This document shows positions 40,088 to 60,084 of a DNA stretch of 64,000 nt, in pieces. Position 1 is the first letter of the stretch. The number at the start of each line of letters is the position of its first letter. A program made the translations under genes and the position numbers. The stretch comes from Cytophagaceae bacterium. GTDB taxonomy: Bacteria > Bacteroidota > Bacteroidia > Cytophagales > JAIYAX01. The DNA is taken from the NCBI GenBank assembly GCA_027488815.1, contig JAIYAX010000006.1:160185-224184 (forward strand), given 5' to 3'. The notes beneath the pieces are model-generated. The model made no database searches, had not been told where the DNA came from, and worked only from the letters and a program-made list of their open reading frames with translations.

Positions 40088-40133
40088 CTTACTAATAATT
40101 TGGTTCAGGGACAACCAAACTTAGCCAATAATC

Positions 40134-40170
40134 TTAAAAAAACAAAAAGGCTGCCTCAAATGAAGCAGCC
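40134..40170 (-). terminator. Terminator between the two paralogues
   Basis: Minus-strand stem GGCTGCTT/AGGCAGCC (one T-G pair, 6-nt loop) followed by TTTTTGTTTTTTT. Duplicate of the terminator at 41984-42018; here it ends the paralogue 2 transcript. A 16-bp perfect palindrome (ATTTCATTAATGAAAT) follows at 40203-40218 in the spacer between repeat units. Confidence 0.75.
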
Positions 40171-40330
40171 CTGTTAAGATTAAACCGGACTTTTAGTCTC
40201 TTATTTCATTAATGAAATCATTCATTTGGCACCATCGTACTCTTTGGGCTTGTTTTGCCTATGCTTCTTTTATAGGAAACCTTCCAATGCTTTTGATCGG
40301 TCAGCAATCGCTATTTCGTTTTCAGAACCA

Positions 40331-41935: not shown

Positions 41936-41983
41936 CTTACTAATAATTTGGTTCAGGGACAACCAAACTTAGCCAATAATCTT

Positions 41984-42040: not shown

Positions 42041-43936
<1,896 letters not shown>

Positions 43937-43977: not shown

Positions 43978-44355
43978 TTAAAAAGTTGAGGTCTGCTCCC
44001 CCATCAATTCCTGAATTTTCTTGATGAGATCACGGGTTGAAAAGGGTTTGGTCACATAGAGATCTGCTCCGGTCTCAATGCCTTTTTCGATGTCGATTTT
44101 TCTGCTTTTTGCAGAAATAAAAATGATTTTGGTCATTTTGAACTCAGCTCTGGAACGTATCTGTTCACAAAGCTCATAGCCATCAATATCAGGCATCATG
44201 ATGTCCAGCAACACGAGATCCGGAACATGTTCTTTGAGGATGCTTAGGGCCTCGGATCCGTTTCGGGCAATAAAAACTTCATACCCGTTTTTCCTCATCA
44301 AAAACTCCAGCGAAAGGAGAATATTGGGTTCATCGTCTGCGATCAATACTTTCAT
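43978..44355 (-). CDS. Single-domain response regulator
   Basis: 125-residue receiver-only protein: MKVLIADDEPNILLSLEFLM, phospho-Asp in DLVLLDIMMPDIDGYEL, IIFISAKSRKIDIEKGIETGADLYVTKPF. No output domain. It overlaps the SSS-histidine kinase gene by 4 bases (ATGA), so it is surely that kinase's partner. It must act through protein contact or as part of a phosphorelay. Confidence 0.92.
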   Translation of the reverse strand: MKVLIADDEPNILLSLEFLMRKNGYEVFIARNGSEALSILKEHVPDLVLLDIMMPDIDGYELCEQIRSRAEFKMTKIIFISAKSRKIDIEKGIETGADLYVTKPFSTRDLIKKIQELMGEQTSTF

Positions 44356-47102
44356 ATAGCGCTCTGTTTTGGTTGTGGTAAGGTATACGCATCATTTAAA
44401 GGCAGGGTAAAGACAAATCGAGCTCCGTGGCCCTCTTCTGACTCTACCCAAATGCGACCCTGATGCATTTCGATAATGCTTTTACAAATGGCGAGGCCCA
44501 ACCCGCTGCCTTCCGGCTTTTTGCGTGTTTGGTTTTTGGCCTGGTAAAATTTGTCGAACAGCCTTTGTTGCTCTTCTTTGCTTATACCGGGACCATTGTC
44601 ACTTACATTTACTGTGAGGTATTGGTCTAGTCTGTAGGCAGTTACCCGGACTTCCCCTTCTTTTGGCTTCACGAATTTGATGGCGTTTGAAAGCAAATTG
44701 ATCAGCACCTGAGTGATCCGGTCACGATCGATCCAAACCTCAGGAAGTCCGCTGCGAACATCAAAATGCAGTTTGACGGATTTGGTTTCTGCCAATTGCC
44801 GGGAGGCATTGATGCTTTCTTCAATGATGGTTTTTACATCGTCTTTGGCAAGGCTTAGCTCCATATTGCCTGACTCAAACTTTTCAAGGTCAAGTACATT
44901 GGATATGAGTCGGGTAAGTCGCTCGCACTCCTGTATGATGGTAGAAAGGAAACGTTCTTTTTCCAAATCATCCATCTCCGGGTGATCATAGACCAGTTCA
45001 GCCATCGCCCTGATGGAAGTGATGGGGGTACGCAGCTCATGTGTGACGGTGTACAGAAACTCGTCTTTCAGCTCACCGTACTGCTTAAGTCGTTCATTGG
45101 CTGCCTTGAGCTCATTGCTGGCTTTACTTAACTGTTCTGATTTCAACGTGAGTGCCTTATTAAGCTCTATCACTTCCTGAGATTCTTTCAGAATGTCAAC
45201 CACTTCTTTGATTCCGATCTCTACGTCTTTCACCACTGAGGCAACCATAATACGGGCGGAGGCTGGGCCAATGGTCTCCGCAAGAAGTCGCTCGGCATAG
45301 GCTATGGCTCTGGAGTCCAGGTTAGGCCTTGCTTTCCAGTCCAGGTTGTTTCTTCGGGCATATCGGTCAAGCACATCTTCGGTTCGTCTATTGCCCAAAA
45401 AACGTATCAAAAGCGATTTCACATCCGGAAAAGCTGCTGTTCCACCCCACTGTACGGTGTTTTCATAACTGGTGGAATACCTAAAGGCATGGACATAAAG
45501 CGTGGCTTGCGAATGCTCCATTTGGCTGGGCTTAAAGATCAAAGAGCCGATCACAAAAAAGAAGATGTTTAACAGCAGGCTCCAAAAAATGACTACTGAG
45601 ATGTGATTGAAGCCTGGGATTGCAATGAGCGAATAGGGAGCAATGTTTTGACCTGCATGCCATGCCTCAGCACTCCAAAGAAAATGTCCTTTTGCTAAAA
45701 GAACAGGTAAAATGAGGCTATAAAACCAAATCAGGAGGCCTACGGCTATGCCTAAATAGGCTCCTACTCGATTAGCTCCCTTCCAATACAGGCCTATAAA
45801 CAACGCAGGAGCAAATTGACTGACAGCGATGAATGAGGTGATGCCGATGGAAACAAGAGGGGTGTCCTGAGTGAAATATAAAAAATAGAGGTAGGCCAAA
45901 AACAAAATCAGCATGATCGAAAACCTTCTGCTATTGATCAGCAATCCTGTGTAGCGTGTGTCTTTGTCGGCTGTGTAGCGACCAAATCTCAAAATGAGCG
46001 GAATGATCACATTGTTGCTCAACATGGTGCTTAGCGCAATGGAACTGATGACCATCATGGCACTGGCAGCTGAAAAACCTCCCAGGTAGGCAATGAGACT
46101 TAGCCAATCCCAACCCGTAAGCTGGGTGAGTGAAAGCAGGTACGTGTCAGGATTAACAGGTTGGTCTGCAAACAGTAGCCTTCCTGATATGGCCACCGGA
46201 ACAACAAAAAGGTTGATGAGGAAAAGGTACAAAGGAAACACCCACATGGCGGTGCGCAAGTGGCTTTCTGCCTTGTTTTCAATGACGGTCACCTGAAACT
46301 GCCTTGGAAGCAAAAAGATGGCTAAACCCGAGATGAGGCATAGGAAAAACCAGTCCATGTATCCTTTCTCTGGGAAGGTGACTAGTCTTTGATAATCAGG
46401 CAATTTTGCTGAAGCTTCACTGAACAGTGAGCCCGGGCCACTATGTAATCCCCAAAGAACAATAATGCCCACCACCATAAATGCGACTAGCTTCACCACG
46501 CTTTCAACCGCAATGGCTGTCATCATGCCTGAACGGGGTTTATTCGACTCCAAGGTTCTGGTGCCATAGCGTATGGAAAATGCGCCTATGATGATGGTAA
46601 ACAATAAACTGGGCCATGGAATTCCTGATGTCCATGAACCTGAAACCGAATGGATGGAAGGCAATGCGATAATTGAAAAACTATCGGAGATGGCCTTGAT
46701 CTGTAGCGATATGTAAGGAATAATGCCAATGAGGCATGACAATGCGATGAAGCCTGCAAGCCAGGGGTCTTTGCCGTATCTGGATGATATGAAATCAGCT
46801 AGTGTAGAGATGTTTTGCAGTTTCGAAATGCGAATAATCTTCCGCATGACCAACCACCACAGCGGGATGGTGAGCATGGGTCCAATATAAATAGCCAGAA
46901 AATCAGGACCGGCAGTGGCAGCCCGGCCTACACTTCCATAAAAGGTCCAGGCCGTACAGTAAACCCCGAGAGAAAGGGCATAGGTATAAGGAGAGTCGGC
47001 AATCCGAGTACGGAAAAGGCTTCGGTTTTCTACCCTTGAAGCGATGAAAAACAAAAGCCCAAGGAAAGCTAAGGATATAAAACCAAGTAGCCAGGCGCTC
47101 AT
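44352..47102 (-). CDS. Sodium:solute symporter-histidine kinase fusion (CbrA-like)
   Basis: 916 residues. Residues 1 to about 500 form a 12-13-helix SSS transporter domain (YALSLGVYCTAWTFYGSVGR, TLADFISSRYGKDPWLAGF). A coiled linker follows (ALTLKSEQLSKASNELKAAN), then HisKA with YTVTHELRTPITSIRAMAEL (His near 687) and HATPase (VLINLLSNAIKFV, VSDNGPGI, GSGLGLAICKSIIEMHQG). CbrA-like proteins couple transport to signalling. Here the neighbours are a symporter and acs, so acetate or a related carboxylate is the likely ligand. The start overlaps the small membrane protein gene by 4 bases. Confidence 0.92.
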   Translation of the reverse strand: MSAWLLGFISLAFLGLLFFIASRVENRSLFRTRIADSPYTYALSLGVYCTAWTFYGSVGRAATAGPDFLAIYIGPMLTIPLWWLVMRKIIRISKLQNISTLADFISSRYGKDPWLAGFIALSCLIGIIPYISLQIKAISDSFSIIALPSIHSVSGSWTSGIPWPSLLFTIIIGAFSIRYGTRTLESNKPRSGMMTAIAVESVVKLVAFMVVGIIVLWGLHSGPGSLFSEASAKLPDYQRLVTFPEKGYMDWFFLCLISGLAIFLLPRQFQVTVIENKAESHLRTAMWVFPLYLFLINLFVVPVAISGRLLFADQPVNPDTYLLSLTQLTGWDWLSLIAYLGGFSAASAMMVISSIALSTMLSNNVIIPLILRFGRYTADKDTRYTGLLINSRRFSIMLILFLAYLYFLYFTQDTPLVSIGITSFIAVSQFAPALFIGLYWKGANRVGAYLGIAVGLLIWFYSLILPVLLAKGHFLWSAEAWHAGQNIAPYSLIAIPGFNHISVVIFWSLLLNIFFFVIGSLIFKPSQMEHSQATLYVHAFRYSTSYENTVQWGGTAAFPDVKSLLIRFLGNRRTEDVLDRYARRNNLDWKARPNLDSRAIAYAERLLAETIGPASARIMVASVVKDVEIGIKEVVDILKESQEVIELNKALTLKSEQLSKASNELKAANERLKQYGELKDEFLYTVTHELRTPITSIRAMAELVYDHPEMDDLEKERFLSTIIQECERLTRLISNVLDLEKFESGNMELSLAKDDVKTIIEESINASRQLAETKSVKLHFDVRSGLPEVWIDRDRITQVLINLLSNAIKFVKPKEGEVRVTAYRLDQYLTVNVSDNGPGISKEEQQRLFDKFYQAKNQTRKKPEGSGLGLAICKSIIEMHQGRIWVESEEGHGARFVFTLPLNDAYTLPQPKQSAI

Positions 47103-47293
47103 GTTTTCGTGTTATTTTTATTTGGTTTTGTGGCCAATGCCAGACCTAGAATAAGTGCAAGCCAAAGAGCAAACAAATAGAAATACAACACAGGAATTCC
47201 CGCCCAGCTTTTCGATGTATTAAAAAAGCTCAGCAAAGGAAAATTGATCAGCAGCAGCAAGGCAAGAGCAAATAATCCTGTGTAGCGTGACAT
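47099..47293 (-). CDS. Small two-helix membrane protein of the acetate module
   Basis: 64 residues: MSRYTGLFALALLLLINFPL, a polar turn (SFFNTSKSWAGIP), a second helix (VLYFYLFALWLALILGLALA), and a basic tail (TKPNKNNTKT). The layout recalls DUF3311-type proteins that accompany SSS transporters, so it is probably a small subunit of the SSS-kinase; that is inference. Translationally coupled to the SSS-kinase gene by ATGA overlap. Confidence 0.75.
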   Translation of the reverse strand: MSRYTGLFALALLLLINFPLLSFFNTSKSWAGIPVLYFYLFALWLALILGLALATKPNKNNTKT

Positions 47294-47353: not shown

Positions 47354-49045
47354 TTAATGGCTAGAAGCCTCTCCTGCACCGGCAGGTATACGGATGTCTT
47401 CCACCATGTCCTGCACCGACTTGGGTGGTGGAGGAGTAAGTGAGGAGACTACATAAGAGACTACAAAATTGATGATCATGCCTATAGTGCCTATTCCCTC
47501 TGGTGAAATACCAAGGAACCAGTTTTCAGCCACATTGTAAGCTGGGTCTACGATAAACTTGAAGTAAACGATGTAGCCAATGGTAAATAACAAACCTACA
47601 ATCATTCCGGAGATTGCTCCCGGGCCGTTCATTCGTTTGCTAAAGATACCCATGATGATGGCCGGGAAGAAGGATGCAGCGGCAAGACCAAAAGCAAATG
47701 CAACGACCTGTGCCACAAACCCCGGAGGGTTAATTCCAAAATATCCGGCTACGGTAACAGCTGCAACTGCGGCCAATCGGGCTGCCATAAGCTCATTTTT
47801 CTCAGAGATGTTAGGGGCAATGGCTTTCTTCAACAGGTCATGAGAAATGGCTGTTGAAATTACCAGAAGCAACCCGGCGGCAGTACTTAAGGCAGCTGCC
47901 AAACCACCTGCTGCCACCAGTGCAACCACCCAATTGGGGAGGCCTGCAATTTCTGGATTGGCCAACACCATGATATCCTTATCGATGGTAAGCTCGTTTG
48001 CGGCTTGATCTTTCACGTATTGAACTTTACCATCACCGTTTTTATCTTCCACCTTGATCAGACCGGTCTTGCTCCAGTTATTTACCCAGGCAGGCAAAGA
48101 AGCGATTTCCTTGTTGCTCGCCGAGTTGATCATGTTGTAGATTCCAAAAGCAGCCAATGCAGGTGCGGTGGTATACAATATGGCAATAAACACCAGGGCA
48201 TAGCCGGCTGATTTACGTGCATCTTTCACTTTCGGTACGGTGAAGAACCTTACGATTACGTGCGGAAGGCCGGCAGTACCAACCATCAAGGCAGCGGTAA
48301 TGCAAAAGATGTCAATCATTGGCTTGGTGCCTACTGTATAAGCTCCAAAACCAAGTTCAGGCAAAATACCGTCAAGCTTATCTAATAGCGGAGTGCCGTC
48401 AGCCAAAGTTCCTCCCATTCCCAGTTGTGGGATGGGATTGCCGGTGAGTTGCAATGAAATGAAAATGGCAGGGACCATGTAGGCAAAGATCAACACACAG
48501 TACTGAGCCACTTGGGTATAGGTGATCCCTTTCATACCTCCCAAAACAGCATAAAACAATACGATGATCATTCCAAAGATAACACCGGTGTTAATGTCGA
48601 CTTCCAAAAAGCGGGAAAACACAATACCTACTCCACGCATTTGACCTGCTACATAGGTAAACGAGATGAAGAGTGCGCAGATTACCGCTACTTGTCGGGC
48701 TGTCTGTGAGTAATAGCGCTCACCCACAAAATCAGGAACGGTAAACTTTCCAAATTTCCGGAGGTAAGGAGCCAAAAGCAGGGCCAAAAGCACATATCCT
48801 CCTGTCCAGCCCATCAGATACACCGAACCGTCATAGCCGGTAAATGAAATGAGACCTGCCATGGAGATAAAGGAAGCAGCAGACATCCAGTCCGCAGCTG
48901 TCGCCATACCATTGGCAAGAGGAGAAACACCACCACCGGCAACGTAAAATTCCTTGGTGGAACCGGCACGGGCCCAAAGGGCGATGCCGATGTAGAGAGC
49001 GAAGGAGAGACCTACGATGATGTAGGTCCAGGTGAGAATATCCAT
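47354..49045 (-). CDS. actP: Sodium:solute symporter, acetate-type (ActP-like)
   Basis: 563 residues, about 13-14 transmembrane helices of the SSS family. Signature segments: KEFYVAGGGVSPLANGMATAADWMSAASFISMAGL (read in parts), DFVGERYYSQTARQVAVICA, VVAFAFGLAAASFFPAIIMGIFSKR. The long hydrophilic loop near residues 310-350 (ASLPAWVNNWSKTGLIKVED) is usual in this VC_2705/ActP-like branch paired with DUF4212. It imports acetate or a small carboxylate with sodium. Own shared leader motif upstream; hairpin downstream. Confidence 0.85.
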   Translation of the reverse strand: MDILTWTYIIVGLSFALYIGIALWARAGSTKEFYVAGGGVSPLANGMATAADWMSAASFISMAGLISFTGYDGSVYLMGWTGGYVLLALLLAPYLRKFGKFTVPDFVGERYYSQTARQVAVICALFISFTYVAGQMRGVGIVFSRFLEVDINTGVIFGMIIVLFYAVLGGMKGITYTQVAQYCVLIFAYMVPAIFISLQLTGNPIPQLGMGGTLADGTPLLDKLDGILPELGFGAYTVGTKPMIDIFCITAALMVGTAGLPHVIVRFFTVPKVKDARKSAGYALVFIAILYTTAPALAAFGIYNMINSASNKEIASLPAWVNNWSKTGLIKVEDKNGDGKVQYVKDQAANELTIDKDIMVLANPEIAGLPNWVVALVAAGGLAAALSTAAGLLLVISTAISHDLLKKAIAPNISEKNELMAARLAAVAAVTVAGYFGINPPGFVAQVVAFAFGLAAASFFPAIIMGIFSKRMNGPGAISGMIVGLLFTIGYIVYFKFIVDPAYNVAENWFLGISPEGIGTIGMIINFVVSYVVSSLTPPPPKSVQDMVEDIRIPAGAGEASSH

Positions 49046-49080: not shown

Positions 49081-49338
49081 TTATTCATCTACTCCGTATT
49101 CCTTATCCAGCTTGTTCATCCAGGCGACGTACACGAAGATGAGGATGATGAAGACGTAAATGGACCCTTGCTGGGCAAACCAGAAGCCTAGTTTAAAGCC
49201 TCCGATTTTAATGGCGTTGAGTTGATTCACCAGCAGGATTCCAAAAAGAAAGGAGCTGGCAAACCACACTGAAAGCAGAATGAACAGGTTTCGTACATTC
49301 TTTCTCCAATACTCGGTCATGCGTTCTTTATTACTCAT
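49081..49338 (-). CDS. DUF4212 protein, putative symporter small subunit
   Basis: 85 residues: MTEYWRKNVRNLFILLSVWF, FASSFLFGILLVNQLNAIKI, GFKLGFWFAQQGSIYVFIIL, IFVYVAWMNKLDKEYGVDE. Two transmembrane helices and the conserved GFWFAQQGSIY make this DUF4212, annotated elsewhere as a sodium:solute symporter small subunit and regularly found upstream of this type of symporter. 35 bp upstream of the symporter gene. Its own leader (AACCTTTAAACAAA) is a weaker version of the shared motif. Confidence 0.9.
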   Translation of the reverse strand: MSNKERMTEYWRKNVRNLFILLSVWFASSFLFGILLVNQLNAIKIGGFKLGFWFAQQGSIYVFIILIFVYVAWMNKLDKEYGVDE

Positions 49339-49371: not shown

Positions 49372-50820
49372 TTACAGGTAAATCATGGTTTGTATGATGA
49401 ACTCGCCTAACTGTCCATCCAACTGCAGTTTGGTGGCGGCATTATTGTCCAGGTCACGATATAGTGGCCTTCTTTGATACTTCAGAGTGATTTTTGAATG
49501 ATGGCCATCCAAGTAAACATTGGTGCCAACTCCATATTGAAAAGAGGGATCTGCCAGGGCTTCAAACTGCTTGTAAATTCCGGAGGCAAACGGTTGTATC
49601 CTTGCTTTCTCAGTTGCAAGGTTTTTGGGAAGCAGGTAGCCAATTTCACCGTAGACAATGCTTCCGGTACCAATATGCCATTGGTTATTACCTGCTCCCT
49701 GCCTCAGAGGAGTGCCTGCGCCTATGCCGGCAGGGGCGTTGGTGCCTACATTCATCAGACCTATGGTGCGTATGTAATTAGGCCCAAAGTTGTAGTTGTA
49801 ATACACCGTATAGACTGTCAGCGCTGTTCCTGCCTCCTTATTTATGGGTAAGTCAAGGAAGGCGTCAACTCCAAAAAGGGCCATATCATGCCTTTTTAGG
49901 CCTGTTCTGGCAACTGTGTCCCGGGTGGCCATGGCATCAGGGTGGTGCTGCCAGCCAAAGCCCAGGTTAAAGACTTTCTTTGAACCCAAATGAGTTCCTA
50001 CGAAAAAGGGCAGGAGGTTTGACTCTTTATCAAAGAACTCATAAGCGATATAGCCTTTGCTACCCCAGGAATTGTTGTTATAGTTTTGAGCTGTATTCAC
50101 CCCTGTAGTGCCCGTTGGCGCATTGTTTTGGGTATGAAAAGTCACTGTATTTGATACAGGTGTTGCAAATGGCTTGTTAATGGATACCCGGTAGTCAAAC
50201 CTTCCAATCTTGCCTTTGGCATAGTAGCCAAACTCCCTCACAAACTGGTCCTGTAGCTCAATGGTTGGCCAGTTAAAGATGGGTGCATCCAGTGCCATGA
50301 AGTTGAGAGTGCTTGCGGAAGTAATTCTGGAAATACCGCCCCAGTAGTGTAGACCTGCACCTACATTCAGCTTGTCTTTAAAAATCATGTACTCTGTCCA
50401 GGCATCGTGGATAAACACCTGAGGTTTTTTTGCCGAAGTGGCATCAGGAACGGCCCCTGCACTGTTACCCGTCACCCCACCTCCGGGTACACCCCCTGTT
50501 GCGAACGTTTGGTTGTTAATCCCGATGTGCATCAAAATGAGGGCACGCTGTGAAATCTGGGTATACCACAAAAAGCGTGATCGGCGAATTCCGACGTCAA
50601 AGGTCTCCTGTTCAGGAAGGCCATTAACCATTGTGCCCGGGTTGTTTTGTACATATCGACCCCAGACCTGATGCCAGGTAATGAATCGAATGTACTTGGT
50701 GCCATCGTCGTTTACATTCAAACGGATGCCCTTACCATACATGTCATTTCCCTGGCCATGTAGCTGTACGGCAGGCAATAGTGCCAGCAGCAGCAGCGGA
50801 ATGAAAAGAGTTTTCTTCAT
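49372..50820 (-). CDS. Outer-membrane porin-like beta-barrel protein
   Basis: 482 residues with signal peptide MKKTLFIPLLLLALLPAVQL. The mature part alternates aromatic and polar residues and has a glycine-rich loop (GVPGGGVTGNSAGAVPD). Segments such as KYIRFITWHQVWGRYV, IRRSRFLWYTQISQRALIL and LDGQLGEFIIQTMIYL (C-terminal strand) fit an outer-membrane barrel of the phosphate-porin-like kind. First structural gene of the acetate module, 33 bp before DUF4212. It presumably lets the carboxylate through the outer membrane; that role is inferred from position. Confidence 0.7.
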   Translation of the reverse strand: MKKTLFIPLLLLALLPAVQLHGQGNDMYGKGIRLNVNDDGTKYIRFITWHQVWGRYVQNNPGTMVNGLPEQETFDVGIRRSRFLWYTQISQRALILMHIGINNQTFATGGVPGGGVTGNSAGAVPDATSAKKPQVFIHDAWTEYMIFKDKLNVGAGLHYWGGISRITSASTLNFMALDAPIFNWPTIELQDQFVREFGYYAKGKIGRFDYRVSINKPFATPVSNTVTFHTQNNAPTGTTGVNTAQNYNNNSWGSKGYIAYEFFDKESNLLPFFVGTHLGSKKVFNLGFGWQHHPDAMATRDTVARTGLKRHDMALFGVDAFLDLPINKEAGTALTVYTVYYNYNFGPNYIRTIGLMNVGTNAPAGIGAGTPLRQGAGNNQWHIGTGSIVYGEIGYLLPKNLATEKARIQPFASGIYKQFEALADPSFQYGVGTNVYLDGHHSKITLKYQRRPLYRDLDNNAATKLQLDGQLGEFIIQTMIYL

Positions 50821-50866: not shown

Positions 50867-50897
50867 CAAACCAAGTCAATTGCCAAATACGGTGAAA
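50867..50897 (-). promoter_or_regulatory. Candidate promoter of the porin-symporter operon
   Basis: Minus strand TTTC-N19-TTGGTTTG: one mismatch from consensus in each box, at the right spacing. The two ATAGCTA sites lie just upstream of the -33 box. Confidence 0.35.
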
Positions 50898-50901
50898 AAA
50901 T

Positions 50902-50934
50902 GGGATAGCTATTTGGTCGTTTGGTATAGCTACC
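50902..50934. promoter_or_regulatory. Two direct ATAGCTA sites upstream of the porin promoter (candidate operator)
   Basis: GGGATAGCTATT (50902-50913) and GGTATAGCTACC (50923-50934) are spaced exactly 21 bp, two helical turns. A third copy (GGTATAGCTATC, minus strand) overlaps the promoter-proximal start of the InsA-like gene. Centred at about -46 and -67 from the predicted start, the position expected for an activator. Confidence 0.5.
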
Positions 50935-50939
50935 CGACT

Positions 50940-51359
50940 CTACCTAAATCGCTCCCAACGGATGACCATAAACTTATCGCCCAATTCTGTAATGATCATC
51001 CCCGCCCCTGTGACCTGATCCTTACGGCTCACGAAATCGGTCAACTCATTGTGCGATAGTATTTTATAGGTAGGGTGATAAGACGCTTTTACCGGAGCTT
51101 TTACCTTGTATTTTTTCACCCAGCTGCTGATGGACGTATGGCTGATGCCCAGGATACGTTCGATCTCCCTGAGGCTGACGCCCTCCACAAAAAGCTGCAA
51201 TGCTTTGATCACATAGTAGTCGTCAATGCGCTTACCGAGCTTATTCACCGTGAAGTGGTAGCCACATGTCCGGCATTTGTATCGCTGCTTTTCTTTAACA
51301 ATGCCGCTTTTAGCGATATTTTGATGGCCACAGCTCGGGCAAGAAGGATTCGGTTCCAT
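50940..51359 (-). CDS. InsA-like zinc-ribbon/HTH protein, probable transcription regulator
   Basis: 139 residues from ATG 51359; the longer frame to 51467 runs through the promoter. A zinc ribbon (CPSCGHQNIAKSG..., RYKCRTCGYHF) is followed by a helix-turn-helix (VEGVSLREIERILGISHTSI, SSWVKKYK), as in IS1 InsA / IS1595 N-terminal domains. A 50-residue tail (LTDFVSRKDQVTGAGMIITE, FMVIRWERF) is not part of InsA. There is no InsB or DDE domain, no inverted repeats and no target duplication, so it is not a working IS. It precedes the acetate module on the same strand and is flanked by copies of a GGTATAGCTA motif. Inferred: a domesticated transposase-derived regulator. Confidence 0.7.
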   Translation of the reverse strand: MEPNPSCPSCGHQNIAKSGIVKEKQRYKCRTCGYHFTVNKLGKRIDDYYVIKALQLFVEGVSLREIERILGISHTSISSWVKKYKVKAPVKASYHPTYKILSHNELTDFVSRKDQVTGAGMIITELGDKFMVIRWERFR

Positions 51360-51371
51360 GATAGCTATACC
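51360..51371 (-). promoter_or_regulatory. ATAGCTA site at the start of the InsA-like gene (candidate autoregulatory operator)
   Basis: Minus-strand GGTATAGCTATC, touching the ATG (51359-51357) and lying 7 bases downstream of the -7 element: a position where a bound protein would repress. Confidence 0.5.
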
Positions 51372-51378
51372 TTTATGA

Positions 51379-51386
51379 CAAAGATA
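51379..51386 (-). promoter_or_regulatory. -7 element (TATCTTTG) of the InsA-like gene
   Basis: An exact TAnnTTTG match 19 bases before ATG 51359; supports that start. -33 not convincing. Confidence 0.5.
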
Positions 51387-51692
51387 TACGTAATGGCCAA
51401 AATAATATTTCTTACATATCAAAAATTGCCAATCATTATTTGCTGAAAACAAGGCCATCCAAAACAAGGAAGTGGGTTTTGACTGAAAAAGAAAGCCGTG
51501 GTTCTGATTAACGGATATTGATTGGGACTGTATAAACAGTTATAAAAAGTACTGCTAGAAAGATATAAAAGAAAAAAAGTAATCTATCATGCTAATTCCA
51601 GAGATTTGTTCTCATAGCAATTTGAAAGGATGATAAACTCACAAAACAGATTTTTATGTATTTTGACCAACTATCAATCTTAGAATATAAAA
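51387..51692. other. Intergenic region between acetate module and restriction operon
   Basis: Very AT-rich. I see no gene, terminator or exact -7 element for hsdR; GTATTTTGACC (from about 51660) is a near match on the plus strand. Left boundary of the defence island by composition. Confidence 0.4.
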
Positions 51693-54482
51693 GTGAAAAA
51701 CGAAAAACTGACAAGGAAGGAAATCATTGACAACCGCTTGAAACAAGCGGGCTGGAATGTAACTGACCGGACTCATGTAATTGAGGAATTTGATATTCAC
51801 TTGACAGTAGTCGAAGAACCAGCAACACCATACGCAGGACATCAATTCTGCGACTATGTTTTATTGGGTAAGGATGGCAAACCGCTTGCAGTTGTTGAAG
51901 CTAAAAAGACTTCGGCAGACGCCGCACTTGGCAAAGAACAAGCAAAACAATATTGCTTCAACCTTAAACAAACACAAAGCGTTGACTTACCTTTTTGTTT
52001 CTATACTAACGGGCACGACATATATTTTTGGGACTTAGACAACTATCCACCAAAGAAAGTCTATGGTTTTCCGACCCGTGACGACCTTGAACGCTATGCC
52101 TACATCCGCAAAGCGAGAAAGCAATTAGCAGGGGAACTTATCAATACCAAAATTGCAGGACGGAATTATCAAATAGCTTCTATTCGTGCTGTAATGGAAT
52201 CCGTTGAAAAACGGAAACGCAAATTCTTATTGGTAATGGCGACAGGAACAGGCAAGACAAGAACTTGCATTGCATTGGTGGACGCCTTAATGAGAGCCGG
52301 TTGGGCAGAGAGAGTTCTATTCCTTGTTGACAGAATTGCATTGCGTGACCAAACACTGGAAGCATTCAAAGAGCATTTGCCCAACGAACCACGCTGGCCT
52401 AAACAAGGAGAAAAAGAAATTGCAACCGACAGACGAATTTATGTTTCAACGTATCCAACCATGTTGAACGTAATTCGCAATGAAGAAAAAAGTTTAAGTC
52501 CACATTTCTTTGACTTGATTGTGGTGGACGAAAGCCACCGAAGCATTTACAATACCTATCAGGAAATTCTTGATTATTTCAATACGATTACGCTTGGCTT
52601 AACAGCCACGCCAACGGACGTAATTGACCATAATACATTTCAGTTGTTTGAATGTGAAGATGGCGTTCCGACTTTTGCTTATTCTTATGATGAAGCAGTA
52701 AACCACATTCCGCCATTCCTGAGCAATTTTCAGGTCATGAAAATCAAAACCAAATTTCAAGACGAAGGAATAAACAAGCGGACAATTACTTTGGAAGACC
52801 AACAGAAACTCATGTTGGAAGGAAAAGAAATTGAAGAAATCAATTACGAAGGAACGGAGATTGAAAAGAAAGTAATCAACAGAGGCACAAATGCTTTGAT
52901 TGTCCGAGAATTTATGGAGGAAAGTATCAAAGATACGAATGGGGTTTTGCCAGGGAAAACGATTTTCTTTTGCATCAGCAAGCCCCATGCAAGGCGGATT
53001 GAAGAAATTTTTGATTCGCTTTATCCTGAATACAAAGGCGAACTAGCCAAAGTGTTGGTGAGCGAAGACCCAAGAGTTTACGGAAAAGGCGGTTTGCTCG
53101 ACCAGTTTGTTCACAATGATATGCCACGCATTGCAATTAGTGTTGACATGCTCGACACGGGAATTGATGTTCGTGAATTGGTGAATTTAGTTTTTGCAAA
53201 ACCTGTTTACAGCTACACCAAGTTTTGGCAGATGATAGGCAGAGGAACTCGTTTACTCGAACCTGAAAAAATCAAACCTTGGTGCACTCAAAAAGATAGT
53301 TTCCTGATTCTTGATTGTTGGGACAATTTTGAGTATTTCAAAATCAACCCGAAGGGAAAAGAACCAAAGGCGCAAATTCCTTTGCCTGTTCGTTTGTTCG
53401 GTGTGCGTTTAGAAAAAATTGAAGAAGCCAGAACACAGAGCAATTCAGAACTTGTAAATAAGGAAGTTCTGAAAATCAGAAAACAAGTTGAAGCACTTCC
53501 TAAAAATTCAGTTGTAATCATGGAAGCTAAATATGAATTGCAACGCTTGGAAGATGAAAACTTTTGGAACAACCTGACTTCCGATAAAATGGAATTTTTA
53601 GAAGCAGTGGTAAAACCATTGCTTCGAACGGTTTCGGATGTTGATTTCAAAGCCATGCGATTTGAAAAAGACATTGTTGAAGTGTCCTTTGCTCATTTGG
53701 CAGGTGAAACCGAAAAGTTTGAAACACTGAAAGAAAGCATCATTGAAGAAATTGGAGAACTGCCTTTGAGCATCAATATTGTGGCAAGAGAACAAGAATT
53801 GATTCGACAAGCACAAAGCAATCATTTTTGGTCAACCATAAATGAAGAAAAGTTTGAAGAACTGATTCAGAAACTTTCACCATTGATGAAATTTCGTGAA
53901 GCGGTTATTCCGTTAGCTCCTGCAAAATTCAACTTTAAAGACATTGTTGCTGAAAAAGAATTTGTAGAGTTTGGTCCGCAACACGAAGCGTTGAGTGTAG
54001 CTAAATACCGTGAACTGGTAGAAAAGAAAATCAATGAACTGGTTTCAAGCAGTCCCATACTTCAAAAACTAAAACAAGGTCATGAAATCACAACGAATGA
54101 AGCCGAACAATTAGCAGAGGAATTACACAACGAGCATCCGCACATTACCATTGATTTGCTTCGCAAGGTATACAATCACCGCAAAGCGGCATTGGTGCAA
54201 TTCATCAAACACATTTTAGGAATTGAGCAATTAGAAACTTTTGCAGAAACTGTTACCAAAGCATTTGATGATTTTATTGCCAAACATAGTTACCTCACCA
54301 GCCGACAACTGCAATTTTTGGACTTGCTCAAAAACTTTGTATTGGAAAAAGGTGATGTAAGCAAACGAAACCTGATTGAATCTCCTTTTACCATGCTTCA
54401 TCCCGAAGGAATAAGAGGAATTTTCAACCAAAGAGAGATTGACAAAATTTTAAGTTTAACCGAACAAGTATTAGCAGCATGA
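51693..54482 (+). CDS. hsdR: Type I restriction enzyme subunit R
   Basis: 929 residues from a GTG start (51693). PD-(D/E)xK nuclease near the N-terminus: Asp54 in FCDYVLLG and E69-A-K71 in AVVEAKK. SF2 translocase with Walker A VMATGTGKTRT (183-189), DEAD-like box VVDESHRSIY, motif III LTATPTD, and motif VI QMIGRGTRLL. The C-terminal third is helical like EcoEI_R_C. Cuts unmodified DNA after ATP-driven translocation, with HsdM and HsdS. First gene of the operon; overlaps the GIY-YIG-like gene by 4 bases. Codons are much more A/T-rich than those of genes before 51 kb, suggesting horizontal transfer. Confidence 0.93.
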   Translation: MKNEKLTRKEIIDNRLKQAGWNVTDRTHVIEEFDIHLTVVEEPATPYAGHQFCDYVLLGKDGKPLAVVEAKKTSADAALGKEQAKQYCFNLKQTQSVDLPFCFYTNGHDIYFWDLDNYPPKKVYGFPTRDDLERYAYIRKARKQLAGELINTKIAGRNYQIASIRAVMESVEKRKRKFLLVMATGTGKTRTCIALVDALMRAGWAERVLFLVDRIALRDQTLEAFKEHLPNEPRWPKQGEKEIATDRRIYVSTYPTMLNVIRNEEKSLSPHFFDLIVVDESHRSIYNTYQEILDYFNTITLGLTATPTDVIDHNTFQLFECEDGVPTFAYSYDEAVNHIPPFLSNFQVMKIKTKFQDEGINKRTITLEDQQKLMLEGKEIEEINYEGTEIEKKVINRGTNALIVREFMEESIKDTNGVLPGKTIFFCISKPHARRIEEIFDSLYPEYKGELAKVLVSEDPRVYGKGGLLDQFVHNDMPRIAISVDMLDTGIDVRELVNLVFAKPVYSYTKFWQMIGRGTRLLEPEKIKPWCTQKDSFLILDCWDNFEYFKINPKGKEPKAQIPLPVRLFGVRLEKIEEARTQSNSELVNKEVLKIRKQVEALPKNSVVIMEAKYELQRLEDENFWNNLTSDKMEFLEAVVKPLLRTVSDVDFKAMRFEKDIVEVSFAHLAGETEKFETLKESIIEEIGELPLSINIVAREQELIRQAQSNHFWSTINEEKFEELIQKLSPLMKFREAVIPLAPAKFNFKDIVAEKEFVEFGPQHEALSVAKYRELVEKKINELVSSSPILQKLKQGHEITTNEAEQLAEELHNEHPHITIDLLRKVYNHRKAALVQFIKHILGIEQLETFAETVTKAFDDFIAKHSYLTSRQLQFLDLLKNFVLEKGDVSKRNLIESPFTMLHPEGIRGIFNQREIDKILSLTEQVLAA

Positions 54483-54826
54483 TTAAGATGGAGGAATTAA
54501 GATGGACTGAATGGAAAGCAATGCCTTCGCCTGAAAATTGCAAATCAGTAGAAGGACCAAAAGATTCAGGTGTATATCAAATAAGAAATAGGGAAACAAA
54601 GGAATTTATTCAGTTTGGTGAGAGCAAAACTTGTCAAAAGAGGATGAAATCTTTCTTTCCAAAACCATATGGAACTGGAACCAGAAACAATGAAGATAAA
54701 AGGGTTTATGTTTTAAGCCATTGGAGTGATTTGGATTATAGAACAATCGAAACAAGCTCAAAAGAAGAAGCTGTTAAAATAGATAGATTTCTAAAGTCAC
54801 TTAATATTCACAAGTTCAATACATAG
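54479..54826 (+). CDS. Small GIY-YIG-like protein inside the type I RM operon
   Basis: 115 residues, ATG overlapping the hsdR stop (ATGA). The core SGVYQIRNRETKEFIQFGES has GVY at 31-33 and QFG at 45-47 in the place of GIY and YIG, and an Arg (R55, CQKRMKSF) at about the catalytic spacing. KEEAVKIDRFLKSL and an Asn near the end fit the helix and final strand of the fold. So a degenerate or divergent GIY-YIG domain is likely; nuclease activity is uncertain because the second Tyr is Gln-Phe. It is 8 bp before hsdM, so expressed with the RM system. Not a standard type I subunit. Confidence 0.6.
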   Translation: MIKMEELRWTEWKAMPSPENCKSVEGPKDSGVYQIRNRETKEFIQFGESKTCQKRMKSFFPKPYGTGTRNNEDKRVYVLSHWSDLDYRTIETSSKEEAVKIDRFLKSLNIHKFNT

Positions 54827-54834
54827 TAAGATAG

Positions 54835-56409
54835 ATGTTACAACACAACACACAATTAAAATCACTTATTGACAAGCTCTGGCAGAACTTTTGGGAAGGC
54901 GGCATTGCCAACCCTTTAACGGCTATTGAGCAAATTACCTATCTCATTTTCATGAAGCGTTTGGACGATTTGGAAGCCAAGCGTGAACGGGATGCAGAAT
55001 GGACAGGCGAAAAATATGTTTCCCGCTTTTCAGGCCAGTTTCAAATTCCGGGCAGCAACGAAAGCATTGACAAAAACGAATTGCGTTGGAGTGTCTTCAA
55101 ACACAAACCCGCTGATGAAATGCTGATGCATGTGCAAATGAAAGTGTTTCCGTTTTTGAAAACCATTCAAGACGGAGCATCGGGTGAAGGGCTTTTTACC
55201 AGACACATGGCCAATGCGGTGTTCATTATGCCTAAAGCCAGCTTGTTGGTTTCTGCCATCAACATTGTAGAAGATATTTTCAAAGAAATTGAAAAAGATG
55301 CCACCGAAGGCGGTCATGCTTTTCAGGATATACAAGGCGATGTGTATGAAATGCTGTTGAGTGAAATTGCCACCGCAGGAAAAAACGGACAGTTCAGAAC
55401 GCCTAGGCACATTATTAAACTCATGGCTGAATTGGTGGCTCCGCAATTGGGACATCGCATTGCCGATCCTGCTTGTGGAACAGGCGGTTTTTTGTTGGGG
55501 GCGTATCAATACATCCTCACCGATTTGGTGCGTAAAAAAGACCCTGCCAAACTGAGCAAAGACGAAGATGGTTTTGAACGTGCCGCCATCAGTGCCGTGC
55601 TTACGCAAAAAGTAAAAACCATACTCGACCAGAGTTTTGTGGGTTATGACATTGACACCACGATGGTGCGTTTGGGTTTGATGAACATGATGATGCACGG
55701 CATTGACGAACCCAAAATTGATTACAAAGACACCCTGAGCAAAACCTACAACGAAGACAGCCAGTTCGACATCATCATGGCGAACCCGCCATTTACAGGT
55801 AATATTGACAAAGGCGACATAAACGAAGGACTGAAACTACCCACCACCAAAACCGAACTGCTGTTTGTAGAACGTATTTTTAATATGCTGAAAATGGGCG
55901 GAACAGCAGCCGTAATTGTGCCCAGTGGCGTGATACAAAACAGCGGAAAAGCATTTGAAGCAGTTCGAAAATTGATTATAGATAAAGCCGAACTGAAAGC
56001 GGTGATTGCTGTGCCAAGCGGTGCATTTAAACCCTATGCAGGCGTAAGCACAGCCATCCTGCTTTTTACCAAAGGCGGAGAAACCGACCACGTTTGGTTT
56101 TACGATATGCAAGCCGATGGTTACACCTTAGACGACAAGCGAAATAAAATTACCGAAAGCGATTTGCCCGACATTGTGCAACGCTACAAAGCCAGAGACG
56201 CCAAAAAAGACAACGACCGAAAGCAGAAATTCTTTATGGTGCCGAAAAAGGAAATTGTAGAAAACAACTACGATTTAAACCTAAGCACTTACAAAGAAGA
56301 AGTGTATGAAGAAGTAAGCTATGAAAAACCGAATGTGATTTTCGGAAAATTAGAAACCCTTGAAGCCGATATTCAAAGTGGTTTAAAAGAACTAAAGCCT
56401 TTGATTTAA
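54835..56409 (+). CDS. hsdM: Type I restriction-modification methyltransferase subunit
   Basis: 524 residues. N-terminal HsdM helical domain (LIDKLWQNFWEGGIANPLTA, IEQITYLIFMKRLDDLEAKR), then an N6-adenine methyltransferase with SAM motif ADPACGTGGFLLGAY and catalytic IMANPPFTGN (NPPF). Methylates the recognition site chosen by HsdS. Last base of its stop is the first base of the hsdS ATG (TAATG), so tightly coupled. Confidence 0.95.
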   Translation: MLQHNTQLKSLIDKLWQNFWEGGIANPLTAIEQITYLIFMKRLDDLEAKRERDAEWTGEKYVSRFSGQFQIPGSNESIDKNELRWSVFKHKPADEMLMHVQMKVFPFLKTIQDGASGEGLFTRHMANAVFIMPKASLLVSAINIVEDIFKEIEKDATEGGHAFQDIQGDVYEMLLSEIATAGKNGQFRTPRHIIKLMAELVAPQLGHRIADPACGTGGFLLGAYQYILTDLVRKKDPAKLSKDEDGFERAAISAVLTQKVKTILDQSFVGYDIDTTMVRLGLMNMMMHGIDEPKIDYKDTLSKTYNEDSQFDIIMANPPFTGNIDKGDINEGLKLPTTKTELLFVERIFNMLKMGGTAAVIVPSGVIQNSGKAFEAVRKLIIDKAELKAVIAVPSGAFKPYAGVSTAILLFTKGGETDHVWFYDMQADGYTLDDKRNKITESDLPDIVQRYKARDAKKDNDRKQKFFMVPKKEIVENNYDLNLSTYKEEVYEEVSYEKPNVIFGKLETLEADIQSGLKELKPLI

Positions 56410-57536
56410 TGACATTACTAAAAGACATAGTTCAAATAGAGAAAGGCAGAAAATACAACTTGCTTGAAGAAAAACAAGAGGGTGCAATTCGTGTGTTTCA
56501 AGCAAACGATTTCCGAAATGAAAACAAACCGCTTTATACTTTAGATGCTGATGGAGTTTTAGCCAAAGAAGATGATATTATGTTGGTTTGGGACGGTTCT
56601 GTTGGGCAAATGGGATTTGGCAGAAGTGGTTATATTGGAAGCACTATGGTAAAATTGAAAGTCAAAAACATAAAACAGTTTTCGCCTTTTTTCATTTATC
56701 GATTTCTGCAAACCAAATCGGAATATCTAAAGCGGAAAGCTACTGGTGCAACCATCATGCACATAAACAGGAAGTCATTGGAGCAACTTGAAATTCCTGA
56801 TTTAGAAATTGACGACCAACTCAACATTGCCAACATCCTCAGCAAAGCCGAAAACCTTATAGCCCAACGCAAAGAAAGCATCCGCCTGCTGGATGAATTT
56901 TTGAAAAGCACGTTTTTGGAGATGTTTGGTGACCCAATAATTAATTCAAAAGAATGGCCGGTTGAAAGGTTAGATAAAATAAGTAAACTTGAAAGGGGCA
57001 GATTTTCTCCAAGACCAAGAAATGACCCTTCATATTTCAATGGGGATTATCCATTTATTCAAACAGGAGATATAAGCAAGAGTGGAAACAGATTAAATTC
57101 TTACACTCAAACTTTAAATGAAAAAGGAATAAAGGTTAGTAAGAAATTTAATAAGGGAACAATTGTTATTGCAATTGTAGGTGCAACGATAGGAGCAACT
57201 GCAATTTTGGAAATTGAAGTTTATGCTACTGATAGTATAATAGGCATAACTCCAAAAGTTGAATTTACAAATAGCTATTTTGTTGAATTCAATATGCAAT
57301 TCTGGAAACCTATTCTACTGAAGAATGCACCAGAAGCCGCAAGAGCAAATATTAATCTTGAAATACTAAACAAACTTCAAATTATTTCTCCTCCAATCGA
57401 ACTCCAAACCCGATTTGCTCAAATCGTAGAAAAAACAGAAGCCCTCAAAAGTCAATACCATCAGAGCTTGCAGGAGTTGGAGAATCTATATGGTAGTTTG
57501 AGTCAGAGGGGGTTTAGGGGGGAGTTAATAAAATAA
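56409..57536 (+). CDS. hsdS: Type I restriction-modification specificity subunit
   Basis: 375 residues with two target-recognition domains. TRD1 is about 1-130 (MTLLKDIVQIEKGRKYNLLE), with conserved coiled spacer LNIANILSKAENLIAQRKES and LDEFLKSTFLEMFGDP. TRD2 is about 175-330 (WPVERLDKISKLERGRFSPR), ended by the second spacer (RFAQIVEKTEALKSQYHQSL...). It sets the bipartite DNA target. Slightly shorter than typical 400-450-residue HsdS because TRD1 is compact. No inverted repeats suggesting phase-variable shuffling were seen nearby. Confidence 0.92.
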   Translation: MTLLKDIVQIEKGRKYNLLEEKQEGAIRVFQANDFRNENKPLYTLDADGVLAKEDDIMLVWDGSVGQMGFGRSGYIGSTMVKLKVKNIKQFSPFFIYRFLQTKSEYLKRKATGATIMHINRKSLEQLEIPDLEIDDQLNIANILSKAENLIAQRKESIRLLDEFLKSTFLEMFGDPIINSKEWPVERLDKISKLERGRFSPRPRNDPSYFNGDYPFIQTGDISKSGNRLNSYTQTLNEKGIKVSKKFNKGTIVIAIVGATIGATAILEIEVYATDSIIGITPKVEFTNSYFVEFNMQFWKPILLKNAPEAARANINLEILNKLQIISPPIELQTRFAQIVEKTEALKSQYHQSLQELENLYGSLSQRGFRGELIK

Positions 57537-57989: not shown

Positions 57990-58165
57990 TAGATTTATCC
58001 TGAATGAACCATTTAAAACTGAGGCGTTCACTCGTTTGGCCCAAGGAACAATTGTGCATGCAGGAATTGCTGCTACTTTTGCGGGCGAAAGATTTTTTGG
58101 CGACCAACCTTATTGCTCTTTCGTCCGACCGAAGCCTTGTTCCAATGGCTTCGGTTTTTATTTTT
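57990..58165 (+). ncRNA. Candidate structured RNA ending in a strong terminator
   Basis: The plus strand here shows successive inverted repeats: TGAAC/GTTCA, CAATT/AATTG, a 10-bp stem GGGCGAAAGA (58083-58092) with TCTTTCGTCC (58117-58126, one G-U), and the terminator at 58128-58165. No plus-strand gene accounts for the terminator. A near -7 element TAGATTTA (57990-57997) could start a transcript of about 165 nt. No known RNA family recognised. Confidence 0.3.
58128..58165 (+). terminator. Plus-strand rho-independent terminator without an assigned gene
   Basis: A perfect 9-bp stem ACCGAAGCC/GGCTTCGGT, 10-nt loop, then TTTTTATTTTT. It faces the plus strand although both flanking genes are on the minus strand; its tail overlaps the last bases of the PIN gene. 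Confidence 0.8.
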
Positions 58166-58658
58166 CCCATTGCTTTATCAATTTATCGATTGTCTCAGCA
58201 GGTAAGCGGGTATTCTTCAACCTAAGCTGCTCCAGCAGACTTATCCCTTTTCTAGCATTTATGATTTCATTTATCACCAGTTGCTCAATTACCCAAATGC
58301 TTCCTCGTACTTCTAAAGCTTGTCCTTCTGCTTCTTTGCGTAATTTACTATCGCAAGTCAGCAAAGTGGCTTTCAGTTTTAAGGCTTTCCATAAAATTGT
58401 TTTGTCAGCAATGGAGTGAATTTTCAGACTTGTCTTAAAATTCAAAACTTCTTCTACTTCCTCCTCGCTTGTTATTAAAATTTTTAGCTGTTTGCTTCTT
58501 GCAAATGCTTCAAATTCAGTTTTTTGGCTGGCATGAAGTATTTCGTTGTACACAATGTCTGAAGTATAAATTTCCCAATCCAGAGCAAAAAACTCAGGCA
58601 AGGCCTGAATCTGATATAAATCAAAGAATACGCTTACATCCGTGACTACCAGCTTCAT
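58158..58658 (-). CDS. PIN-domain protein, probable toxin
   Basis: 166 residues from ATG 58658, whose ATG overlaps the stop of the XRE-ImmA gene (ATGA). PIN-like acidic positions: MKLVVTDVSVFFDLYQI (Asp near 7), SDIVYNEILH (Glu), SIADKTILWKAL (Asp) and LLTCDSKLRKEAEG (Asp). PIN proteins are Mg-dependent RNases and common toxins. Translational coupling behind an XRE-COG2856 gene matches predicted toxin-antitoxin modules of that type. The last 30 residues (ISLLEQLRLKNTRLPAETID) are a helical tail typical of the DUF3368-like branch. Confidence 0.75.
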   Translation of the reverse strand: MKLVVTDVSVFFDLYQIQALPEFFALDWEIYTSDIVYNEILHASQKTEFEAFARSKQLKILITSEEEVEEVLNFKTSLKIHSIADKTILWKALKLKATLLTCDSKLRKEAEGQALEVRGSIWVIEQLVINEIINARKGISLLEQLRLKNTRLPAETIDKLIKQWEK

Positions 58659-59734
58659 ACCAATTGATTCATTTGTTCCCGGAGTTTCCATGATGAAACA
58701 CCTGCAAAATAGGCCGCTTCATTGATGGTCAACACCTCCTTGGCTAAAGCCATAAATACCAGTCTCTCTAAACGAGTTGGTACTTCCTTGCTCATAAACT
58801 TTCCGGGTTCATTGCCAGGTAAATGGTATTCCCTTTTCTTAAAACCGATATTGAATCTTTGGTATACATGATCGTTGATGATGCCTAGTTGCCTTGCCCG
58901 GCTGAAAATGGCCGAGATCGATATTCCCCATCGTTGTTTCAATAGGATCAGCTCCCTTTCATAAAAATGGAAGCGCTCTTTGTGTAACTCTCTCCTTGCC
59001 ATTTCTTCCGGATAGAGCACTGCTGAAGCAAAGGCATGACAAAGATTCTCCATCTCCTTCTCTTTCATTTCATCAGGAAATTTCAAAGCGTGATGAGCCA
59101 GCTCATGCAAAGCGGTAAATCGCTTTCTGACGATATCAGAATCGGCACTTTTATTCTTGTTTAGGGCGATGACAGGCTGACCATTAACAATAGCCTTTAA
59201 GCCATCGAAGCCTTCAGGAGCTTCTACGTCAATCACTTTATACCCTTTGTCTTCAAGCATCTCCACTACATCCGGAATCGGGTCATAACCCAAATTCCAC
59301 TTCTCTCTCAAACTTTTAGCTGCTGCTTCTGACTGACTTGCATTTATGATAACTTCATGATGCTTGAAATACTCTGGCTTATCCTGAAATCCCATTAGAT
59401 CTTCTAATTCAAAATACCGCTCAAAAACAGACTTCGCTCTTTCTTCGATGGCATCCTTCTCTGCCTTTGATACTTTAGTGCTGTACTTGCGATATTCAAC
59501 ATGTTCAAATTCAATCTTTACTTTAGGTTCAGAATAAAAATAATCTACACTTACACCCAAGGCGTTAGCAATGGAAATCAGTACTGAGCTATCAGGCTTC
59601 ATTTTGCCCAACTCATACTTGCTAAGCGATTGTTTGGATACGGTATCTTCCCCAAGCTTTTCTGATAACTCTTGTAGAGACAGTCCAGACATTTTCCGGG
59701 CAGTCATCAATCTATTTGCAAATAGGTTATCCAT
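58655..59734 (-). CDS. XRE-family HTH and ImmA/IrrE metallopeptidase protein, probable antitoxin
   Basis: 359 residues from ATG 59734; the 25 extra upstream codons would include the promoter. HTH_3 at 5-65 (FANRLMTARKMSGLSLQELS, SKQSLSKYELGKMKPD), then the COG2856/ImmA peptidase domain with zinc site TALHELAHHAL (near residue 206) and the downstream Glu in ENLCHAFASAVLYPEE. The C-terminal 60 residues (TRLERLVFMALAKEVLTINE...) look like a second helical DNA- or partner-binding part. Typically such proteins repress their own operon and are inactivated or cleave partners on stress. Own promoter just upstream. Confidence 0.85.
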   Translation of the reverse strand: MDNLFANRLMTARKMSGLSLQELSEKLGEDTVSKQSLSKYELGKMKPDSSVLISIANALGVSVDYFYSEPKVKIEFEHVEYRKYSTKVSKAEKDAIEERAKSVFERYFELEDLMGFQDKPEYFKHHEVIINASQSEAAAKSLREKWNLGYDPIPDVVEMLEDKGYKVIDVEAPEGFDGLKAIVNGQPVIALNKNKSADSDIVRKRFTALHELAHHALKFPDEMKEKEMENLCHAFASAVLYPEEMARRELHKERFHFYERELILLKQRWGISISAIFSRARQLGIINDHVYQRFNIGFKKREYHLPGNEPGKFMSKEVPTRLERLVFMALAKEVLTINEAAYFAGVSSWKLREQMNQLV

Positions 59735-59763
59735 ATCTCTAATTCTGATTAGTCTCTTAGCGA

Positions 59764-59794
59764 CAAATATACTTATTTTAAAACATTCGTCAAC
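59764..59794 (-). promoter_or_regulatory. Promoter of the XRE-ImmA/PIN operon (GTTG-N19-TATATTTG)
   Basis: Minus strand: exact -7 TAnnTTTG (59771-59764) and three-of-four -33 at 19-bp spacing; predicts a leader of about 24 nt to ATG 59734 and so fixes that start. Confidence 0.6.
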
Positions 59795-60084
59795 CATATA
59801 TTTTCCCAACTCTTTAGCATAAGACCAATCAGAAAGTGAAATAGCTAACTTAATGCCTTTACATTCTTCACAATCCCTGGCATGCCAAACTGCTTAGAAT
59901 ATTGCCTTTAAAGATTTTCTATTTACTTCTTCGACTTTACAATAGGCTTTCAGAATACCCAACACCACATAGTAAAGTCACTGAGAGGTCAAGAAAGGTT
60001 GACAAAACCAATAAATGAGATGAGCTGCAGAGCAAAGGAAAAAACTCTTTTCTAAGACTTTAAAGCTCCAACAATTTCGGATTT
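59795..60084. other. Intergenic region, right edge of the defence island
   Basis: No gene, tRNA, att-like repeat or clear terminator was recognised between the XRE-ImmA promoter and the 3' end of fhs. Base composition changes back to that of the surrounding chromosome at fhs. Confidence 0.4.

Follow-up and report, generated by a model that had tools for sequence, protein, structure and literature searches.

The stretch of 64,000 nucleotides analysed here (the window), from a Cytophagaceae bacterium of the class Bacteroidia, carried an acetate module on its minus strand (Table 1). Behind an InsA-like regulator gene, genes were found in the order porin-like protein, DUF4212 protein, SSS symporter, 64-aa membrane protein, SSS-domain sensor histidine kinase (SSS-HK), receiver-only response regulator and acetyl-CoA synthetase (acs). 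An operator of its own was absent before acs, which lay 41 bp behind the receiver gene, so only the site on the porin side would serve the module in this genome. No other conserved DNA-binding protein was present in the module when the loci of relatives were compared.

Table 1. Genes of the acetate module and sites around the regulator gene, in window positions
Feature	Position	Strand	Remarks
Operator unit 1, own promoter of the regulator, TTTGGCCATTACGTATAT	51384..51401	-	diverged, 3.1 bits
Operator unit 2, own promoter of the regulator, TTTGTCATAAAGGTATAG	51365..51382	-	0.2 bits; overlaps the site of the preliminary description, 51362-51371
-7 promoter element TATCTTTG (TAnnTTTG)	51379..51386	-	at the junction of the two operator units
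InsA-like regulator gene	50940..51359	-	139 aa
Porin-side operator TTTGGTCGTTTGGTATAG	50912..50929	+	inverted relative to the own-promoter operator; 10.8 bits
Second TATAG-type box GGGATAGCTA	50902..50911	+	21 bp from the first
Probable porin -7 element TTGGTTTG	50867..50874	-	55 bp downstream of the CTATA box start
Outer-membrane porin-like protein	49372..50820	-	no Pfam match; below cut-off to porin_ExtI
DUF4212 / Na_symport_sm small symporter subunit	49081..49338	-	
SSS symporter large subunit, VC_2705 family	47354..49045	-	TIGR03648
64-aa membrane protein	47099..47293	-	conserved before the kinase
SSS-domain sensor histidine kinase (CrbS/CbrA-like)	44352..47102	-	
Receiver-only response regulator	43978..44355	-	125 aa, without DNA-binding domain
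Acetyl-CoA synthetase (acs)	42041..43936	-	

The ORF sequences also showed type I restriction-modification genes (HsdR, HsdM and HsdS, 51693-57536) in divergent orientation to the regulator gene, with a 115-aa ORF between the R and M genes. The XRE/ImmA-IrrE-like and PIN-like proteins encoded one after the other at 58158-59809, judged in the same way, are probably a toxin-antitoxin-like pair. Two tandem near-duplicate secreted proteins, whose termini were alike (sorting-tail type) and whose middles had diverged, were encoded at 38486-41962. Motif searches also gave matches with a period near 195 bp (GGAACAGCTA/GGTATAGACA) at about 140-1325, pointing to a tandem repeat region.

The regulator of 139 aa was composed of a zinc ribbon (residues 1-41), an HTH (about 47-85) and a C-terminal tail (97-136), and the four-cysteine ribbon (CxxC...CxxC) followed by HTH is a feature of the IS1 transposase/InsA. 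The NCBIfam model of the IS1/IS1595 domain (NF050000) matched the ribbon above its cut-off (40 vs 28), and PF03811 matched 38 of 45 family members. The full IS1 transposase model (NF033558) gave 82.9 bits, below its cut-off of 100, with an alignment that covered profile positions 1-122 of 199 only, the DDE part being absent. The homology of the protein to IS1 InsA is solid. No insB followed the gene, the next gene on the same strand being that of the porin, and the gene was single-copy in the window genome. This is in agreement with the preliminary description, in which a stand-alone InsA-type protein with an extra tail and no transposase partner had been proposed. For the tail a beta-alpha-beta-beta fold was predicted by AlphaFold, with pLDDT above 90 in the tail core. 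Foldseek found nothing significant for the whole protein, for which Lrp/AsnC regulators ranked first (E 0.003, TM about 0.25), nor any significant structural match for the tail alone. The tail was also considered as a truncated DDE domain, and the profile alignment does extend a short way into it, but this reading disagrees with the predicted fold and was rejected.

Relatives were collected by a scan of GTDB contigs, which gave 68 loci, and from a sample of 396 genomes of the phylum, 32 of which had a match. Full-length relatives were 46-68% identical to the window protein, always one per genome. The orthologues aligned end to end, with invariant residues across ribbon, HTH and tail (E105, G120, T124, K129, W135). 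SSS-HK was encoded on the same strand within 7 kb in 59 of the 60 loci having at least 5 kb downstream, and a porin of the window type lay at most 1.5 kb after the regulator in 77 of 94 relatives. An MFS transporter took the place of the DUF4212/SSS pair in Hymenobacter, Chryseobacterium-type and Flavihumibacter-type loci, in which regulator, small membrane protein, kinase and receiver were kept. In ten loci acs was divergent from the regulator gene, which puts the operator region between the two genes.

The place at the head of the acetate module, noted earlier for the window, was thus conserved, with SSS-HK downstream in 59 of 60 loci and one regulator copy per genome. An IS1-like insertion, decaying or still mobile, that sits at the module by chance would also bring an InsA-type protein here, and such an insertion is hardly credible because it is contradicted by this synteny, and the gene was intact and syntenic across several orders, without InsB and in one copy per genome. 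Mobile copies at unrelated loci had been named as an outcome that would speak against the proposal; the orthologues were found once per genome and beside the same neighbours. What looks like a genuine mobile insA-type element was observed in one genome outside the class, where a 146-aa InsA-like ORF was present in four near-identical copies (L129, at G003:C1:1042529 and three more places); it is a possible comparison point for ancestry. There was also a second InsA-like stand-alone type, 48-49% identical (L074:2463-2888 and L075:2432-2860), between gcvT-like and outer-membrane protein genes, in L074 with a probable uppS and a bamA-like gene as well. Neither the acetate module nor the tandem operator was present at these two loci, so other processes may use such regulators.

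Three sites of a 10-mer, GGTATAGCTA, had been described within 470 bases. All three were present, two exact, at 50923 (+) and 51362 (-), and one at 50902 (+) with one mismatch, and the window had no further exact copy; what did not hold was the 10-mer as the whole motif. Exact matches to it numbered 8 genome-wide and those to the reversed control 14, and its other copies were mostly inside ORFs. Since it was no commoner than the control, comparative evidence was needed, and the 10-mer was replaced by a longer element, TTTGCTAAATTRRTATA, of about 18 bp, usually in tandem, of which it is a part. A tandem RTATAG pattern was rejected as well, for it did not retrieve the locus when searched in the own genome. 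A matrix for TTTGCTAAATTRRTATA was built from the non-redundant upstream regions of relatives, with the window left out, and its best match over the 64 kb on both strands was the site in the gap between the InsA-like and porin genes. With matrix matches at both flanks of the gene, the three sites could be recognized as genuine components of an operator pair that is conserved though diverged. Intergenic tandem CTATACC boxes beside a peptidase-like gene elsewhere in this genome (L006:1480-1540, C20:42370) are possibly a further site of the regulator, or a chance occurrence.

At the own promoter of the regulator, the two highest-scoring matrix positions within 80 bp upstream of the ATG were -42 and -23, exactly 19 bp apart. 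These units were weak in the window (3.1 and 0.2 bits), yet spaced as in relatives, with TATCTTTG between them. TAnnTTTG is the -7 consensus of Bacteroidota promoters, and in relatives too this box fell where the tandem units meet. The element was found within 120 bp upstream in 92 of 94 relatives, with the exact 19-bp tandem in 79, so the conservation of the motif, which had been named as a check, was confirmed. Of 47 non-redundant upstream regions, 46 passed the matrix threshold and only that of the window fell short, whereas shuffles gave 2.3; the threshold was reached in all 46 relatives, in one only at a distal position, and normally by two units 19 bp apart. The 33-bp tandem occurred exactly once per genome, beside the regulator, in 23 of 27 genomes, and in genome G190 it lay on the far side of the regulator gene. 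The repressor position first suggested for the own start is supported by this geometry in the window and in relatives, since the sites bracket the -7 of the gene itself.

On the porin side, relatives had the element again, inverted and somewhat more closely spaced, between the regulator stop and the following gene. After the stop, 21 of 46 matched a strict pattern (0.27 in shuffles; 7 on the opposite strand), and TTTG/TTGG showed a peak 57-59 bp from the CTATA box start, which is the place of the -7 box. The activator position claimed for the porin promoter agreed with this, the porin -7 lying about 55 bp downstream of the window site, as in relatives.

Flavobacterium, in which the regulator was present in 31 of 81 genomes, had single elements before acs, BCCP/biotin carboxylase, udk and hpt, all in the orientation seen at the porin, with a -7-like box 48 bp (acs) or about 57-58 bp beyond. 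A strong acs-promoter site was present in 8 of 15 Flavobacterium genomes with the regulator and in 0 of 15 without (Fisher p=0.001), a contrast whose independence is overstated, and whose p-values are weakened, by the shared ancestry of these genomes. In two of the seven regulator-bearing genomes without the site, acs lay directly behind the receiver gene. A udk-promoter site was found in 4 of 15 with the regulator and 0 of 15 without (p=0.05, marginal alone). The direction of the contrast was consistent at acs and udk. Some of the non-acs sites may be there by chance, with 14 control matches against 39. The operator-like sites before udk (L144, L146, L156 and L158, around 1501) had the orientation and spacing seen at acs, hinting that the regulon is wider than acetate.

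The element might be a mere core promoter, made of AT-rich -7/-33 sequences, rather than an operator, for promoters are AT-rich and TAnnTTTG lies inside the tandem. This is very improbable, because the element reaches well past the -7 with a fixed 19-bp repeat, its inverted copies at the porin and acs precede separate -7 boxes by about 48-58 bp, and it was absent from the acs promoters of congeners without the InsA-like gene. It might also be read by another transcription factor that has the InsA-like gene among its targets. The single elements found outside the module, before udk and hpt, would fit this, and binding by the InsA-like protein is itself a prediction; the idea is unlikely given that the tandem form was unique to the InsA-like gene in nearly all genomes, that acs sites were missing from genomes lacking the gene, and that the module is without any other conserved DNA-binding protein. 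The sites at target promoters were specific, conserved and tied to the presence of the protein, which is one of the features expected of a transcription factor controlling this module.

The InsA-like protein is thus best read as the dedicated transcription factor of the acetate module, at a probability of roughly 0.7. From the computed conservation, synteny, sites, spacing and co-occurrence, we infer binding, the signs of regulation and the signal path. The protein very probably binds TTTGCTAAATTRRTATA-type sites, its InsA-type ribbon and HTH reading the element of about 18 bp, often in two copies about two helical turns apart. Repression of its own gene, a sign taken from the site position, is probable: with two units bracketing the -7 box, binding would shut transcription of the InsA-like gene. 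The inverted element just past the stop, about 55 bp upstream of the porin/transporter -7, would most likely give activation, and in relatives so would the elements preceding the -7 of acs and of some other genes by 48 or about 57-58 bp, 48 and 58 bp being one helical turn apart. Orientation and spacing make activation of porin and acs rather likely, slightly less so than autorepression.

An SSS kinase and a receiver are present without DNA-binding output, and the simplest reading would be that the acetate signal reaches DNA through the InsA-like protein, possibly via its conserved C-terminal tail. In the sample of 396 genomes, all 28 SSS-HK genomes within the class had the regulator, and 28 of the 29 regulator genomes had SSS-HK, while outside the class 13 genomes had the kinase without the regulator. 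Beside the kinase in the latter, the candidates for a DNA-binding output were without Pfam DNA-binding domain, and one of them had PAS only. The lone exception within the class, a Hymenobacter-like genome, had lost the kinase and kept regulator, MFS transporter and acs, so the link to the kinase is not obligatory. The odds that the InsA-like protein is linked to kinase and receiver may be put at about even.

In Gammaproteobacteria, acs and actP are controlled by CrbS/CrbR (MxtR/ErdR), an SSS kinase with the LuxR-type CrbR (PMC5715377, PMC5436829). The two systems share a histidine kinase that is fused to an SSS (SLC5) domain and associated with acs and an acetate symporter. CrbR is a DNA-binding regulator of the LuxR type, whereas here the receiver stands alone and the sole DNA-binding protein of the module is of the InsA type, so the role of CrbR on DNA appears, by domain content, to be filled by an unrelated protein.

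The origin of the regulator was considered too. It may be an IS1-type fossil, in which the inverted operators are the old left and right ends, InsB was lost, and end-binding and autorepression by InsA were kept. This adds an origin to the dedicated-regulator explanation and does not oppose it. In IS1 itself, InsA is a repressor that binds both IRL and IRR, and IRL and the promoter overlap (PMC12428005). The regulator resembles IS1 InsA in ribbon and HTH, in a promoter over one repeat with a second inverted repeat beyond the gene, and in autorepression, here predicted from site position (PMC12428005). One motif was found, inverted, on both flanks of an insA-only gene; the IS1 transposase profile was the top family match in 45 of 45 members, with the alignment entering the start of the catalytic domain; and the left end of E. 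coli IS1 fitted the matrix better than shuffles (p=0.003). Against this, the right end did not match (p=0.33), the operator had no clear resemblance to the ends of Bacteroidota IS1 copies, the predicted tail fold does not have the strand order expected of a DDE start, and site duplication could also give inverted operators. The tree placed the regulators as a single clade outside the sampled IS1 transposases, so in the earlier wording "transposase-derived" the homology to IS1 InsA stands, and nesting inside IS1 was not seen; the protein may share an ancestor with a transposase instead of descending from one. That the regulator came from an IS1 element, with the inverted ends turned into operators, is an attractive but unproven idea, and the fossil is only a tentative proposal. 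Similarly doubtful is the larger scenario that an early Bacteroidia ancestor captured a whole IS1-type element, InsA becoming the acetate regulator, the ends its operators, and the protein the DNA-binding output of a CrbS-like system.

The regulator differs from IS1 InsA in that it is without InsB/DDE domain, is never multi-copy, has a fixed place in a metabolic operon, and has putative sites that extend to acs in another part of the genome. It has a conserved tail of about 50 aa, which E. coli InsA does not have. As with TldR, which is TnpB-derived, a mobile-element protein without its catalysis would be reused as a transcription factor; TldR is RNA-guided, whereas the InsA-like protein would read DNA directly by ribbon and HTH. 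Reuse of mobile-element transcription factors by hosts has been reviewed, with Ner/SfsB and antitoxin-derived regulators (PMC8987985), and the present case would resemble these in that a DNA-binding protein encoded by an element serves the carbon metabolism of the host; an InsA/IS1 case is absent from that review. The system had been put forward as one not known to be described, and a search of the literature, covering few subscription journals, gave no paper on an acetate regulator that is InsA-like or linked to DUF4212.

Profile-based annotation would label such proteins as transposase-like, so a regulator of acetate use that is widespread among environmental Bacteroidota has probably been overlooked. 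If the reading is true, it would be a clear bacterial case of an insertion-sequence-type DNA-binding protein, perhaps with its terminal repeats, made into a host transcription circuit, and it would supply the missing DNA-binding output for the SSS-kinase/receiver-only system in this class. The sites, together with the contrast between genomes with and without the gene, make it directly testable in cultivable strains.
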